Shown here: piece by piece, positions 3 through 4,216 of the stretch
How positions within the stretch are numbered: position 1 is the first letter of the stretch
Layout: each line of letters begins with the position of its first letter
Source: a virus
Length of the DNA stretch: 22,230 nt
IMG/VR virus record: IMGVR_UViG_3300002242_000651
Span: 1-22,230 of that record
Strand: one strand, 5' to 3'
Notes under the pieces: model-generated
Databases searched by the model: none
What the model saw: the letters and a program-made list of their open reading frames with translations, nothing else
What the model was told of the DNA's origin: nothing
Made by a program: the position numbers and the translations under genes

Positions 3-233
3 GCTGCGCATAGACTACTTACCAGTATAAACGTGGGCAGAGAAGTAGCAGCGGGTCACGCCTTTCCTCATTTCTCAGAGTGGATTGATGAGAGGTGGGA
101 CGATGAAAAAAAATTGCTAAAATTAAAGGTGAGAGCCAAATCAAACAGGGTTAAGAAAGAATCTGTGTTTAATATTCTCGTCTCAAGTCCAGATCACAGT
201 TACCTACTGGCTAACGGTGCAAACAATTACAAC
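3..233 (+). mobile_element. Intein 1 in terminase, C-terminal end only
   Basis: The segment ends in a typical intein block F/G: FNILVSSPDHSYLLANG followed by ANNYN, then Ser as the first extein residue (234-236). Asn plus a downstream Ser is the expected splice chemistry. The penultimate residue is Tyr rather than the usual His. The extein resumes with SFETMSGRVYYPF, a conserved terminase stretch just before the first nuclease motif, so excision restores a continuous terminase. The N-terminal splicing blocks lie outside the window. Codons 3-150, rich in Lys, Arg and Glu, are not recognisable and could be linker or the end of an endonuclease domain. Confidence 0.78.
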
Positions 234-686
234 TCATTTGAGACGATGAGTGGCCGAGTTTACTACCCTTTTGATAGAAACATTCATGTTGGCGAATACC
301 CAATCAATCCCACATTACCAGTGTGGGTGGGGCAGGATTTCAACATCGACCCCATGAGTGCGGTAATCATGCAGCCTCAACCCAACGGTTGTGTTCACAT
401 CGTTGGTGAGGTGGTCTTGTTTGGCTCGAACACCGAAGAGAGTGTGGACGAGATAGAGCGAAGATATTACAAATACACAAAAGCAATGACCATATATCCA
501 GACCCTGCAGGAAAGCAAAGACAGCATGCCAGAGGCGAGACTGATTTGGATATATTTAGAGAGCGTGGTTTCAAACGTATAAAACACAGAGCAAAACACC
601 CAGCTATTGCGGACAGGGTGAACTGCGTAAATAGAATGTTAAGAACTGCGGATGGTCAGGTTAGATTGTTTGTTGATAAGAGTTGA
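3..686 (+). CDS. terL: Terminase large subunit, nuclease domain (5' partial, with the end of an intein)
   Basis: The frame is open from the window edge to a TGA at 684-686, so the gene starts upstream; the GTG at 33 is probably not a true start. Codons 3-233 are the tail of an intein. From Ser at 234 the protein reads as the RNase H-like nuclease of a phage large terminase, the enzyme that cuts concatemeric DNA during packaging. Visible motifs are SGRVYYPFDR, then VGQDFN with the first catalytic Asp at 336-338, then GEVVLFGSNTEES with a likely second acidic residue near 408, then RVNCVNRMLRTADGQVRLFVDKS. The same frame continues past the TGA with terminase-like sequence (687-770) and resumes after the second intein (1512-1586). 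The gene is therefore one terminase interrupted by a stop, not a natural C-terminus. The portal gene follows directly, as is usual. Confidence 0.85.
   Translation, partial: AAHRLLTSINVGREVAAGHAFPHFSEWIDERWDDEKKLLKLKVRAKSNRVKKESVFNILVSSPDHSYLLANGANNYNSFETMSGRVYYPFDRNIHVGEYPINPTLPVWVGQDFNIDPMSAVIMQPQPNGCVHIVGEVVLFGSNTEESVDEIERRYYKYTKAMTIYPDPAGKQRQHARGETDLDIFRERGFKRIKHRAKHPAIADRVNCVNRMLRTADGQVRLFVDKS
684..686 (+). other. In-frame TGA inside the terminase coding frame
   Basis: The terminase frame reads FVDKS, TGA, then KAVIESFEQTIYKKG without a frame change. Large terminases of this type, as I remember them, typically have a Cys at this position (pattern VDxxCKxLIxxLEQ), so the stop is one base away from TGC or TGT. 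It is a sequencing error, a recent nonsense mutation, or a codon that is read through. TGA is used as a normal stop by at least five other genes here (6461, 8037, 15091, 20500, 21033), so the code is not globally changed. Confidence 0.8.
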
Positions 687-752
687 AAGGCGGTCATTGA
701 GTCCTTTGAGCAGACTATTTACAAAAAGGGTTCAAGAGATATTGACAAGACT

Positions 753-1586
753 ATGAATTTGGAGCACGCCTGCTTTCATGGTGATCAACTTGTTAATGTA
801 AATGGCAATACGATGGCCTTTAAAGATATACCAAAGACAGGCGTAGTAATGTGTCATGATGGCAAATACAGACCTTACATAAACGGTGGAAAAATAAAAA
901 GCTTTGTTCCAATGCTCTTGGTTACTTTATCGAATGGTGTTGCTATAAGATGCACCCACGATCACAAGTTCTTAACTGTCGATGGTTGGGTTGATGCAAT
1001 CAACATGCAAGATAAAACACTATGCAACCAAGAATTATTAGCGGAACTATTCAAGAATACGACGGTAAAAGATATTACTTGTGCGAAAGCCCAAGAGAGA
1101 TTTCGCAGAAGGCTAGAAAAGCTGCGGCAAAATGGCACGGCAGCGAAGATGGTATTGATTGGCACAAGAGTAAATATGAAAGGACAAAAGACGCTCTCCA
1201 CAGTAGAGAAAACTCTTTTGAGTGCGCTCAGTGCGGTGTCTCCTTTAAAACAAGCAGAGTTGAAAAAGCTATGTTCTGCTCGAAAAAATGCAAGGCCGCT
1301 TACAGAAGAGACTCAGGCGTTGACAATGAGAAGAGAGCTTGCGTTGTCTGTGGAGGCGAGTTTGAAATCAACAAGTATTATGCAACAAAAACGTGTGGAA
1401 GAAATTGCGCCTCACGTCTGTCGTATAGACATAGAGCCGCCAAGTGATTCTTACTGCCTAACTGTTCCCGACTTTGGCATGTTTGAGATTGGAGGTGTTG
1501 TTTCGTCCAACTGCGACGCTCTAGGGTATTGTATTGAGATAGAATTTCCTATGAGAAAGGTCGAAATTGCGGGTATTTCCATCTAA
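753..1586 (+). CDS. terL: Terminase large subunit C-terminus carrying a complete intein
   Basis: This is the same gene and frame as the preceding terminase segment; the open frame extends back to 687 (KAVIESFEQTIYKKGSRDID). The ATG at 753 is simply an internal Met of the extein. The first six codons (MNLEHA) are extein, followed by a 247-residue intein and then CDALGYCIEIEFPMRKVEI to the TAA. The joined extein EHA+CDALGY matches the last nuclease motif of large terminases, where the Asp (1515-1517) is the third catalytic acidic residue. Translated alone from 753 the product would be only an intein with 30 extein residues. A functional terminase therefore needs readthrough of the TGA at 684 or correction of that base. 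It ends 89 bases before the portal gene. Confidence 0.85.
   Translation: MNLEHACFHGDQLVNVNGNTMAFKDIPKTGVVMCHDGKYRPYINGGKIKSFVPMLLVTLSNGVAIRCTHDHKFLTVDGWVDAINMQDKTLCNQELLAELFKNTTVKDITCAKAQERFRRRLEKLRQNGTAAKMVLIGTRVNMKGQKTLSTVEKTLLSALSAVSPLKQAELKKLCSARKNARPLTEETQALTMRRELALSVEASLKSTSIMQQKRVEEIAPHVCRIDIEPPSDSYCLTVPDFGMFEIGGVVSSNCDALGYCIEIEFPMRKVEIAGISI
771..1511 (+). mobile_element. Intein 2 in terminase, complete, 247 residues
   Basis: The intein starts at Cys (771-773) in the block A pattern CFHGDQLVNVNG. It has a clear block B, IRCTHDHKFLTVDGW, with the TxxH motif (THDH). It ends with block F/G, DSYCLTVPDFGMFEIGG then VVSSN, followed by Cys +1 (1512-1514). The residue before Asn is Ser instead of His. 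The splicing core is about 82 residues at the N side (to about 1018) and about 37 at the C side (from about 1400). The frame between them encodes low-information Lys/Arg/Leu-rich sequence, because that DNA codes in another frame for an HNH-family protein. Insertion is one residue before the third catalytic Asp of the nuclease, the sort of invariant site inteins favour. Confidence 0.85.
1022..1447 (+). CDS. HNH-endonuclease-family protein nested out of frame in intein 2, catalytic core missing
   Basis: The 141-residue ORF has its own ATG and TGA and lies entirely inside intein 2, one base behind the intein frame. Its N-terminus (IISGTIQEYDGKRYYLC, residues 5-21) resembles the opening of phage HNH homing endonucleases. 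Residues 35-60 carry the WHGSEDGIDWH segment of that family. Residues 68-129 carry two CxxC...CxxC zinc-ribbon-like pairs (C68, C71, C86, C90 and C107, C110, C125, C129) around YRRDSGVDNE. The HNH catalytic block that should lie between residues 21 and 35 is absent, so the protein is shorter than expected and probably not a nuclease. No convincing ribosome binding site precedes the ATG, and an in-frame TAA at 1013 precludes fusion to the upstream intein. It could be a decaying gene or a nuclease-free DNA-binding remnant. Confidence 0.65.
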   Translation: MQPRIISGTIQEYDGKRYYLCESPREISQKARKAAAKWHGSEDGIDWHKSKYERTKDALHSRENSFECAQCGVSFKTSRVEKAMFCSKKCKAAYRRDSGVDNEKRACVVCGGEFEINKYYATKTCGRNCASRLSYRHRAAK

Positions 1587-1595
1587 TTTAAAAAT

Positions 1596-1610
1596 AAGTC
1601 ATCGGTGACT
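1596..1610. promoter_or_regulatory. Dispersed near-palindrome, copy 1
   Basis: AAGTCATCGGTGACT lies 10 bases after the terminase stop, with six of seven pairs matching around the centre. It is followed by AT-rich DNA (TATAAATAA). It shares the consensus AAGTCAYYGGTGACW with five other intergenic sites in this window. Its function is inferred only from position; an operator or late-activator site is most likely. Confidence 0.6.
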
Positions 1611-1631
1611 ATAAATAACTGTTGCCAAGTT

Positions 1632-1646
1632 AAGTCACTGGTGACA
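1632..1646. promoter_or_regulatory. Dispersed near-palindrome, copy 2
   Basis: AAGTCACTGGTGACA lies 36 bases after copy 1, in the gap before the portal gene, so this gap has a tandem pair. A TAAATT hexamer 8 bases downstream is a weak candidate for a -10 box. The portal ATG at 1676 has no clear Shine-Dalgarno sequence. Confidence 0.6.
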
Positions 1647-1675
1647 TAATACTGTAAATTTTTCAATGGTTTGTA

Positions 1676-3235
1676 ATGACACAAGAAGAACTTAAAAGAT
1701 TAATCGCTAGACGACACCCAGAATATAAGGAGTCTCTCCCTCATTGGATGTTTCTGTATGCCTGCTATAAAGGCGGCAGAGAGTGGTTCGCTAAAAATAT
1801 TCATCGTTACATGAAAGAGGGTGATATTGAATTTAAAGATCGAACTGCAAGAGCATACCGATTTAACCACACCAAGGAGGTAGTTGATCTTGTCGATAAG
1901 TATCTATTTAAGTCGGAGATTGATAGAAACGAAAGCGATGCACCCGACTCTGTTGTGGCGTTTTGGAAGAACTCAACCAAAAGCGGTTTGAGTATTAGCC
2001 AATTCAGCAAACAAATGTCGAGAAAGTCATCCATTTATGGGTCGTTGTGGGTCGTTGTGGATAGCTCAATTAGAGCGGTAGATCAAAACACCAGCGTGAG
2101 AGACGTAAAGCAGGCGAAGGGTAAAGTGTATGCCTACACGGTCAACCCTGATCGTGCTTTGGACTTTGCTGTGGATGACGATGGCGAGCTTATTTGGCTT
2201 CTAATATACGAACAAACCAGAGACTCAAAAGACCCCTTCACCTCTACAGGTGATGTAATTGATAGATACCGATTATGGACTAAAACTGAGTGGCTGTTGT
2301 TGGGGGTTAAAAAGAACGAGGGTGAAAACGATTCAAATGGCACGGTTGTCGTTGTTGACAGAGGGTCCCACAATTTGGGTGAAGTGCCAGCTTTTAGAGT
2401 GGATTGTGCAATCAGTGATGAGCAGTGGAAAGCACCGTCACTAATTGGAGACATAGCTTATCTTGATAAAGCGGTAGCCAATTATCTATCTAACCTAGAT
2501 GCCATCATTCAAGATCAAACCTTTTCTCAACTTGCCATGCCAGCTCAAGGATTGATGCCAGGTGAGAGCGGATACGAGAAGATGCTGGATATGGGCACCA
2601 AGCGCATATTTTTATATGACGGGGAGCGTGGCGGTGAACCTAAGTATTTGGCACCAGACCCCAAACAAGCCAGTGTAATTTTGGGTGTTATCTCAAAAAT
2701 TATTAACGAAATATACCACACCGTCGGTATGGCGGGCGAAAGAACCAAACAAGATAACTCTCAAGGTATAGATAACAGCTCTGGCAAGGCTAAAGCGATG
2801 GATTTTGAGAGAGTTAATTCATTATTGGTGTCCAAGGCTAATTCACTGGAAAAAGCCGAAAGAAAGATGGCTCGTCTTGTTGCCTTATGGCACGGCGAAA
2901 CATTGCCAGAAGATGAGATTGTTAAATATTCAAAATCGTTTGATACACGAGGTCTAAGCGACGAATTTCAGATAGCTACGCAGTTAGCACTCGTAGAAGC
3001 CCCTGACGCTATTAGACGCGAACAGATGACGACAGTTACGGAAAAACTATTCCCCGTAATTAGAAAAGAAATAAAAGCCGAAATAGAAGCGGAGCTAATC
3101 AATTGGCCGCCGAAGGTTGGACAAGTTTTACCTCAAAAGTCGCTAGTAGATTCAAAAACCACGACTGCTGGTCAAGTGACTGCTGGTCAAGTGACTGCTG
3201 GTCAAGTGACTGCTGGTCAAGTTAAGAATCACTAA
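1676..3235 (+). CDS. Portal protein
   Basis: This 519-residue protein has the length, position and sequence features of a phage portal, the dodecameric ring at the head vertex through which DNA is packaged and to which the neck attaches. It opens with MTQEELKRLIARRHPEYKE and a helical N-terminal region (KGGREWFAKNIHRYMKEG). It has a central segment SLIGDIAYLDKAVANYLSNL and a long C-terminal helix around KAKAMDFERVNSLLVSKANSLEKAERKMARLVALW (residues 370-405). These fit the DUF4055-like portal group by eye. The gene sits between terminase and scaffold, the usual place. The C-terminus ends in four TAGQV repeats that look dispensable. No good ribosome binding site precedes the ATG, so initiation may be weak or may depend on a start not obvious from sequence. 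Confidence 0.85.
   Translation: MTQEELKRLIARRHPEYKESLPHWMFLYACYKGGREWFAKNIHRYMKEGDIEFKDRTARAYRFNHTKEVVDLVDKYLFKSEIDRNESDAPDSVVAFWKNSTKSGLSISQFSKQMSRKSSIYGSLWVVVDSSIRAVDQNTSVRDVKQAKGKVYAYTVNPDRALDFAVDDDGELIWLLIYEQTRDSKDPFTSTGDVIDRYRLWTKTEWLLLGVKKNEGENDSNGTVVVVDRGSHNLGEVPAFRVDCAISDEQWKAPSLIGDIAYLDKAVANYLSNLDAIIQDQTFSQLAMPAQGLMPGESGYEKMLDMGTKRIFLYDGERGGEPKYLAPDPKQASVILGVISKIINEIYHTVGMAGERTKQDNSQGIDNSSGKAKAMDFERVNSLLVSKANSLEKAERKMARLVALWHGETLPEDEIVKYSKSFDTRGLSDEFQIATQLALVEAPDAIRREQMTTVTEKLFPVIRKEIKAEIEAELINWPPKVGQVLPQKSLVDSKTTTAGQVTAGQVTAGQVTAGQVKNH
3164..3223 (+). repeat. Four tandem 15-base repeats at the portal 3' end
   Basis: Four adjacent copies of ACTGCTGGTCAAGTG (the last ends in GTT) encode TAGQV four times. 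The copies are identical at DNA level, which suggests recent slippage expansion. The unit is a multiple of three, so the frame is kept. Confidence 0.95.
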
Positions 3236-3260
3236 TGATGATGAGGTGAGAAGTTAAGGC

Positions 3261-3280
3261 GCTGCCGAGAGGTAGCTTTT
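3261..3280 (+). terminator. Possible weak intrinsic terminator after the portal gene
   Basis: GCTGCC and GGTAGC pair (one G-T wobble) around a GAGA tetraloop and are followed by four T. The stem is only six pairs and the T run is short, so partial termination or an mRNA-stabilising hairpin is as likely as true termination. Confidence 0.35.
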
Positions 3281-3327
3281 GTAAATAGAGCCGAGAGACA
3301 GGTTCGAGTTTTGATCGAGAGACAGAT
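3264..3327 (+). repeat. Three spaced CGAGAG repeats in the portal-scaffold gap
   Basis: CGAGAG occurs at 3265, 3292 and 3316. The last two copies share the 10-mer CGAGAGACAG. The last copy is flanked by GATC on both sides. The 102-base gap has no gene and lacks the AAGTCA/GGTGAC element found in other gaps. Confidence 0.6.
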
Positions 3328-3337
3328 CAGGTGAAAT

Positions 3338-4216
3338 ATGTTTAAAAATAAATTACTTTTAAGATTGATGAAGTTGATGATGGGCGTTCAAGTTTTGGGC
3401 GTTGGTGAAGAAGGTGGCGGCGGTGAAACCCCTAAGCCAGCGGAACAGGAATCACCCAAGCCAGCGGAACAGGAAACTCCTAAACCGGCAGATGAAGACC
3501 CTAAACCAGCGGAACAGGAAACTCCTAAAGCAGACCCTTCTAAACCGTCTGACAACGAGGCAAAATTGTTGCGGGAGATGATGGAGAAAAAAGGTGCGCT
3601 AAAAGCTGCAAACGAAGAGTTGGCTCAAGTGAAAGAGCAGCTTGGTAAGTTTGATGGTATCGACTTAGAAGAAGTTAAGACTTTGTTGCAAAGTCGCAAA
3701 GATGCAGAAAATCAGGAGCTTGAGAAGAAGGGCGAATGGGACAGACTGAAGGCTAATTTAATTGAACAGCAAACAGCCGAGAAAACTCAACTACAGACTG
3801 AAATTGATCAGTTGAAGGCAGAGTTACAAGGTAGTGGCCAGATGATTGATAAGCTAACAATTGAATCTGCGTTTGAAGCGTCTAGGTATATCGAAGACGA
3901 ATTAACATTAACACCAAGAAAAGCAAAGATCATCTACGGTAGTCATTTCGACTTCGAGGGTGACAAAATCATTGGGTATGACAAACCTAAAGGTGCTACC
4001 GACAGAACAATGCTGATTGATTCCAGTGGTGAGGCATTATCATTCGATGCAGCAATGACTAACATCATTGCCAACGACGTTGATAAAGATCATCTTATTC
4101 GCGCAAAGGTTAAGCCAGGCGCAAATTCTGGAACACAAGACAACCCAACTCCTGCGGCGAAGCCGGTGATGAAGGGTCGGGATAGAATATCAGCCGCTCT
4201 GAGAGAAAACAGCTAA
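3338..4216 (+). CDS. Capsid scaffolding protein
   Basis: This 292-residue protein lies immediately upstream of the major capsid gene, where scaffolds usually are. After a short Met/Leu-rich start it has a Pro/Glu-rich repeat region (residues 32-66). A long charged coiled coil follows (about 70-175, with NEELAQVKEQLGKFDGIDL and KKGEWDRLKANLIEQQ). A more globular part contains LTPRKAKIIYGSHFDFEGD (about 195-215). The C-terminus is basic and helical (RDRISAALREN), typical of scaffold tails that bind the inner capsid surface. The charged coiled coil and the KKGEWDRLK motif match scaffold proteins of the DUF6651 type as I remember them. AGGTG lies seven bases before the ATG and is a reasonable ribosome binding site. 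Confidence 0.75.
   Translation: MFKNKLLLRLMKLMMGVQVLGVGEEGGGGETPKPAEQESPKPAEQETPKPADEDPKPAEQETPKADPSKPSDNEAKLLREMMEKKGALKAANEELAQVKEQLGKFDGIDLEEVKTLLQSRKDAENQELEKKGEWDRLKANLIEQQTAEKTQLQTEIDQLKAELQGSGQMIDKLTIESAFEASRYIEDELTLTPRKAKIIYGSHFDFEGDKIIGYDKPKGATDRTMLIDSSGEALSFDAAMTNIIANDVDKDHLIRAKVKPGANSGTQDNPTPAAKPVMKGRDRISAALRENS
3431..3535 (+). repeat. PKPAEQET repeat tract in the scaffold
   Basis: Codons encode PKPAEQES, PKPAEQET, a degenerate PKPADED, PKPAEQET and a truncated PKAD. DNA copies are nearly identical (CCAGCGGAACAGGAA appears three times), indicating expansion of a 24-base unit. It probably forms a flexible acidic linker. Confidence 0.9.

Follow-up and report, generated by a model that had tools for sequence, protein, structure and literature searches.

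We analyzed a window of 22,230 bases, the entire IMG/VR virus record IMGVR_UViG_3300002242_000651, whose left end carries the gene for the terminase large subunit (TerL, encoded by terL) with two inteins, followed downstream by the portal gene and further structural genes. The second intein (“intein 2”) overlaps an open reading frame (ORF) of an HNH endonuclease family, which is read in another frame of the same strand while the intein frame continues through it without a stop. An initial annotation of the window had described this out-of-frame nesting as unusual. The arrangement itself is real, but on the sequences that we compared it is the usual one in this HNH family.

Intein 2 and the overlapping HNH-family ORF

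Intein 2 occupies positions 771–1511 of the + strand (247 residues, Cys1 to Asn247, with the +1 Cys at 1512), and its insertion point is the nuclease motif of TerL (LEHA^CDALGY). It has the residues by which inteins are recognized (C1, CTHDH in block B, and an SSN^C junction) and is matched by Pfam Intein_splicing at 1.3e-5. Hidden Markov models (HMMs) of the splicing blocks, trained on related inteins with the window excluded, match it at 1.2e-15 for the N block and 3.2e-10 for the C block. In the predicted structure, two confident halves (approximately residues 1–80 and 213–247) flank a linker in which the predicted local distance difference test score (pLDDT) is mostly below 50; the mean pLDDT of 61 is lowered by this disordered linker, and the best PDB matches of the model are inteins (E 3.9e-4). 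The N-terminal splicing half, at 771–1010 (+), holds Cys1 and block B, is recognized by the N-block HMM, and is modeled at a pLDDT of about 80–95 over residues 1–80. The C-terminal half (SYCLTVPDFGMFEIGGVVSSN), at 1446–1511 (+), is recognized by the C-block HMM, and model residues 213–247 are mostly confident. By motif, profile, and model, intein 2 is thus a genuine intein, with splicing itself predicted. Since both halves lie in the single ORF 771–1511, it is not a split intein of the fractured-gene type. The stop-free frame and the flanking splicing blocks, which the initial annotation had noted, are borne out by the reading frame, the HMMs, and the fold match.

The HNH-family ORF lies at 1022–1447 (+), in the −1 frame relative to the intein, and, as annotated earlier, encodes 141 residues with its own ATG and TGA. 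It is matched by PHROG 15471 (annotated as HNH endonuclease) at 4.9e-25 over residues 34–139 and by phage HNH proteins at 1e-28 with tblastn; by these matches, it is a genuine relative of the HNH family. The PHROG match starts only at profile position 76, and Pfam HNH_3, the catalytic core, is not found in the ORF. In intact relatives, HNH_3 scores 1e-11 to 2e-17, and the core is present in, e.g., L219, L202, L006, and L007 (we number the surveyed loci with the prefix L). Alignment to the relatives indicates that the N-terminal strands (MQPRIISGTIQEYDGKRYYLC) are kept, that a single block of approximately 65–70 residues containing the HNH residues is missing after residue 21, and that the similarity restarts at ESPREISQKARKAAAKWHGSEDG. 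The alignments place the junction (RYYLC / ESPREIS) at about 1082–1087 (+). Downstream, two CxxC...CxxxC zinc ribbons at 1223–1408 (+) in the HNH frame retain 24 of the 25 family-conserved C-terminal positions, and the zinc-finger half as a whole has an HMM score of 112.5 versus a family median of 113.75.

The ORF is therefore predicted to be no working HNH nuclease. The HNH-endonuclease features reported for it earlier hold at the level of family homology and not at the level of the core, and the proposal that this stretch of DNA serves as a homing protein does not hold for this copy. With the core gone and the zinc-finger half intact, either the deletion is recent or the remainder is useful. 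A second nested HNH gene (L263, 2920–3396) has lost its core independently, with the outer frame still open; the window and L263 have the shortest intact-looking inteins (247 and 255 residues versus a median of 320). A PDB sequence search with one HNH protein returned nothing useful, and a fold search with an HNH model returned I-HmuI as its top match, which was not significant (E 0.24).

Nesting, stop avoidance, and expression across the HNH family

We gathered HNH homologues from viral contigs, annotated phages, and bacterial genomes, obtaining 133 distinct sequences with the window included; targeted scans for near kin of the window's HNH or of that of Acinetobacter phage Highwayman yielded 4 and 1 loci only. 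No stop occurs in the +1 frame over the full ORF in 105 of the 133. As selecting nested loci by the absence of stops alone would be circular, the independent check is whether the same ORF carries a splicing block on either side of the HNH gene. This was found in 102 of the 133, the window among them, with both blocks in one continuous ORF at +1 to the HNH frame; the phase is identical in all 102. Left out of this count are L173 and L243, which lack stops but have no intein blocks, and L119, in which the N block was not recognized. The matches from bacterial genomes are nested in five out of five cases. An HNH domain fused in the intein's own frame, which the initial annotation had named as a sign of a pair of sequencing frameshifts, was seen in 0 of the 133 loci. 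Other forms are inteins split in two around the HNH gene (about 12) and free-standing HNH genes (about 15).

A few loci depart from this picture in their details. In L187, the two blocks again share one ORF, but their phase relative to the HNH gene is the opposite one, and the host gene is not recognized as TerL. In L187 and L188 alike, the HNH gene lies at 3189–3836 within an outer ORF that starts at 788, and Pfam sees no terminase; this opposite-phase overlap apparently arose independently. In L219, a single TerL ORF (200–3535) shows both arrangements: a LAGLIDADG homing domain is matched upstream, and further downstream lies an intein overlapped by an out-of-frame HNH. L218 is a near-copy of L195 in which apparent frameshifts run the HNH frame into the C-splicing block and interrupt terL as well; they are probably assembly or sequencing errors.

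The openness of the intein frame is decisive across the HNH family. In the 105 loci, this frame has 0 stops in 22,729 codons, compared to 267 expected from a synonymous shuffle within each HNH gene that preserves its codon make-up, and 430 expected from terL codon usage on the 93 loci where that calculation is applicable. The third frame of the same loci has 1955 stops. In the 28 non-nested homologues, the corresponding frame has 250 stops versus 241 expected, so the HNH family as such avoids no stops. The guanine-plus-cytosine (GC) content is below 40% in 24 nested loci, and their third frame has 719 stops. The phase used is intrinsically the poorer in stops (0.042 per codon in non-nested homologues versus 0.093 in the other phase), and this easier phase, together with common descent, may explain the dominance of one phase.

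Selection on amino acids appears to act on the HNH frame. Between nested copies at 50–70% identity, the differences at HNH codon positions 1, 2, and 3 are 0.365, 0.325, and 0.572, and free-standing copies give nearly the same values (0.377, 0.327, and 0.591). We compared amino-acid identity in the intein frame to a null in which synonymous HNH codons were redrawn, and obtained 0.298 versus 0.263 at 50–70% HNH identity and 0.225 versus 0.216 at 40–50%. The excess over the null is small, and we reject amino-acid selection on the intein-frame linker. Given the third-position bias and a linker identity near the null, the conservation of this DNA is that of an HNH gene, and the linker seems constrained mainly to remain open and in phase. 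The initial annotation had expected both frames to matter for their amino acids; little beyond stop avoidance is seen in the linker. The pattern is the opposite of a conserved intein frame over an unconserved HNH frame, which it had named as a reason to abandon the nested gene.

As to how the nested gene is expressed, 81 of 105 loci have ATG as the first start codon, and at nested loci the HNH frame is closed upstream of the start (median 4 codons). Shine-Dalgarno sequences of at least 5 bases precede 29% of the nested starts versus 10.5% of controls, which were start codons in the same relation within terL (p 4.9e-6). Slippery heptamers near the frame opening are found in 10 of 102 loci versus 28 of 510 controls, i.e., with little enrichment. 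These features make internal initiation likelier than −1 frameshifting.

Mobility, origin, and competing explanations

All inteins with both ends readable are inserted at the TerL nuclease motif (DH..DA). Their exact positions are past DH, one residue further, or past the following DA, and the site in the window is one of these. The median intein is 320 residues long, and the HNH gene spans approximately 213 codons. None of 80 TerL relatives of the window (63–77% identity over the extein searched) carries intein 2, as expected for a mobile element. The nested arrangement also occurs in Tetrasphaera phage TJE1, Acinetobacter phage Highwayman, and Rhodobacteraceae phage LS06-2018-MD07, and in at least one archaeal plasmid, pGSL19_54.9 of Halobacterium sp. 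GSL-19 (L271, 909–3269). The annotation of all four records has only a terminase or Hint protein where the HNH gene lies. The plasmid also carries phage portal and terminase genes, which suggests that its locus is a provirus.

The TerL inteins that are split around an HNH gene (L001, L132, L174, L180, L186, L194, L215, L220, L250, L252, L254, and L272, with Vibrio phage 1.245.O among the phages of this form) are probable fractured genes with trans-splicing. Several free-standing HNH genes adjoin an intein-free terL: L009, L190, L203, L243, and others lie immediately 3′ of it, which is consistent with endonucleases aimed at terL from outside an intein. In the HNH tree, the window falls near free, split, and nested forms of the PAE1 type, without firm support. 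Inteins of the window's type (YCLTVP block) with the nested frame open and the HNH core intact do exist (L195, L202, L219, and L256, and also L192), so the simplest derivation of the window is an in-phase deletion in a form of this kind. By way of split forms, an overlap could have arisen without TerL ever being killed.

We consider it highly probable that the window's locus is a decayed member of a TerL intein class that is widespread and has a separate homing gene in the −1 frame. What is observed is a conserved arrangement in which the intein frame avoids stops and the HNH frame is under selection, present patchily at a fixed TerL site. In the mechanism that we propose, the HNH gene would be separate from the intein and would occupy, in the −1 frame, the DNA that links the two splicing halves. 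Translation in the intein frame would pass through it to yield a precursor that can splice, restoring TerL, while the HNH product would be made from its own internal start codon. This product would cut intein-free terL at the DH..DA motif, and repair would copy intein and HNH gene together. Cleavage of the empty terL site finds indirect support in the fixed insertion site and in the 80 of 80 relatives without intein 2. In the window's copy, an in-phase deletion of the HNH core would have abolished homing, leaving an intein with a disordered linker and, in the other frame, an intact zinc-finger half-protein. A broader account, in which we place moderate confidence, is that these loci form an ancient dual-coding mobile class of TerL inteins in bacterial and haloarchaeal viruses, with an overlapping endonuclease in fixed phase and the essential terL frame policing endonuclease mutations; split inteins would be an intermediate and core-deleted copies a decay stage.

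Several observations count against the decayed-member reading. For the window alone, 2.2 stops are expected in the intein frame under the virus's own codon usage, P(0)=0.076, and with the HNH gene's own codon choice kept, the probability of no stops is 0.69, so that openness at this locus alone is not decisive. No Shine-Dalgarno sequence is recognizable at the window's HNH start, and the sites at many nested loci are weak. The HNH tree has poor resolution in its deep branches and allows a single origin of nesting as well as several. Finally, the TerL extein between the two inteins contains an in-frame TGA (684–686, +), about which the earlier reading of the locus was silent; most relatives have a Cys at this position. 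A defective genome with a nonsense mutation, a sequencing error, or a rare variant are all possible sources of this codon, and it may be that TerL and intein 2 of this genome are never made. TGA recoding in this virus is unsupported: among 19 other genes that we checked, TGA is the stop codon of 5, and the search for tRNAs found none. What we conclude for the class does not depend on this TGA.

The simplest competing explanation is that two frameshifts, as sequencing errors or mutations, displaced an ordinary in-frame HNH domain of the intein. Textbook endonuclease domains do sit in frame, and L218, in which the HNH frame continues into the C-splicing block, is an example of a frameshifted assembly. 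However, fusion in frame is absent from the whole survey, 102 loci share one out-of-frame phase, the splicing blocks on both sides share one frame, and the same nesting occurs in finished phage genomes (TJE1, Highwayman, and LS06-2018-MD07) and a complete plasmid; we give this explanation almost no credence. It is equally hard to believe that chance or base composition keeps the intein frame open. The probabilities for the window by itself and the stop-poorer phase could be cited in its favor, but the probability check proposed by the initial annotation, equivocal for the window, gives for the family no stops where at least 267 are expected, the low-GC loci accumulate stops in the third frame, and the intein ORF has true splicing blocks at either side of the HNH gene. 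Chance openness is ruled out for the class, with the P of 0.076 applying to the window alone. Frameshifting by the ribosome from the terL frame would account for an HNH gene that is always in the −1 frame, and the occasional slippery heptamer fits it. Against it are the low enrichment of such heptamers over controls, the closure of the HNH frame just before a first start that is mostly ATG, the enrichment of Shine-Dalgarno sequences, and the other phase of L187, which together make it very unlikely.

Two further alternatives concern the window's own copy. Its continuous intein could have come from a split one, if a deletion inside the HNH gene left a remnant whose other frame connected the N- and C-terminal halves. 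Split inteins make up about a dozen of the homologues, and the window groups loosely with split and free forms. Since the nested frame is open through an intact HNH core in L195, L202, L219, and L256, no deletion is needed to open it, and we regard a split origin as unlikely. The core-deleted product might instead be retained as a non-cutting DNA-binding protein at the terL site. The unbroken zinc-finger half argues for this, as does L263, with a similar core loss and the rest kept; a recent deletion accounts for the same facts, there are only two such loci, the Shine-Dalgarno sequence is missing, and TerL has an upstream TGA. Such retention is a rather doubtful proposition, and we prefer to view the ORF as the remnant of a decayed nested homing gene.

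Relation to known systems and the surrounding TerL gene

Dassa and colleagues are said to have described, in 2009, fractured genes in which a homing endonuclease gene lies between the halves of a split intein. The loci studied here resemble such fractured genes in that the endonuclease is encoded apart from the intein, and the same HNH family occurs in split TerL inteins. They differ in that the window and 101 other loci have a continuous intein ORF running through an HNH gene in another frame. The intact relatives are also similar to I-HmuI (PDB 1u3e) in having Pfam HNH_3, and the profile matches 1u3e weakly (0.0058). I-HmuI is intron-encoded, whereas the gene here overlaps an intein, and the window's ORF is without the HNH core.

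The closest parallel is the ShiLan domain, an HNH domain out of frame in a phage methylase, for which the authors found no splicing element (Genes 16:178, PMC11855218). As in ShiLan and the similar Pacc40 insertion (Arsenault, Gosselin and Gogarten 2025, PMC11855218), a zinc-finger HNH lies in the −1 frame while the host frame remains open, and the element is mobile and patchily distributed. The host of ShiLan is a non-essential DNA methylase in which the insertion remains in the protein (PMC11855218), whereas in the window TerL is the host and a true intein, complete with both splicing blocks, forms the outer frame. The likeness drawn here is one of arrangement. The HNH part of the window's element works like ShiLan, yet the element is of a different kind, as the splicing blocks are present. 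TerL inteins with homing endonucleases are known from mycobacteriophages, where a LAGLIDADG endonuclease lies in frame between blocks B and F of an intein in the ATPase domain (Kelley et al. 2016, PMC5050341); in contrast to those cases, the insertion here is at the nuclease motif and the endonuclease is an HNH, out of frame.

No description of an out-of-frame HNH within a splicing intein was found in the literature searched, a search that mostly did not extend to subscription papers and preprints. The intein version therefore appears to be undescribed, with ShiLan as the nearest published case.

Homing inteins are usually viewed as a single protein with two fused activities. Here, two genes share the same DNA, so expression of the endonuclease need not depend on splicing, and homing and splicing become separately mutable. 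The forms observed (free by terL, between split halves, overlapping, and core-deleted) amount to a testable scheme for the gain and loss of endonucleases by inteins. The set also provides more than 100 natural cases of long overlaps on a single strand, where selection acts on the protein product of one frame and in the other mainly preserves the absence of stops. Standard annotation conceals such HNH genes.

The rest of TerL in the window can be followed through its exteins, all on the + strand. The segment from intein 1 to the TGA (231–683) matches the PHROG terminase large subunit at 3.3e-28 and is 63–77% identical to the 80 TerL relatives. The segment directly 5′ of intein 2 (687–770, KAVIESFEQ...NLEHA) matches the uninterrupted TerL tail of relatives, as does the C-terminal extein (CDALGYCIEIEFPMRK...), which ends with a TAA stop (1512–1586). 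At the very start of the record, positions 3–230 encode the C-terminal portion of the other TerL intein, ending ...LANGANNYN^S, whose beginning is lost at the record's end.
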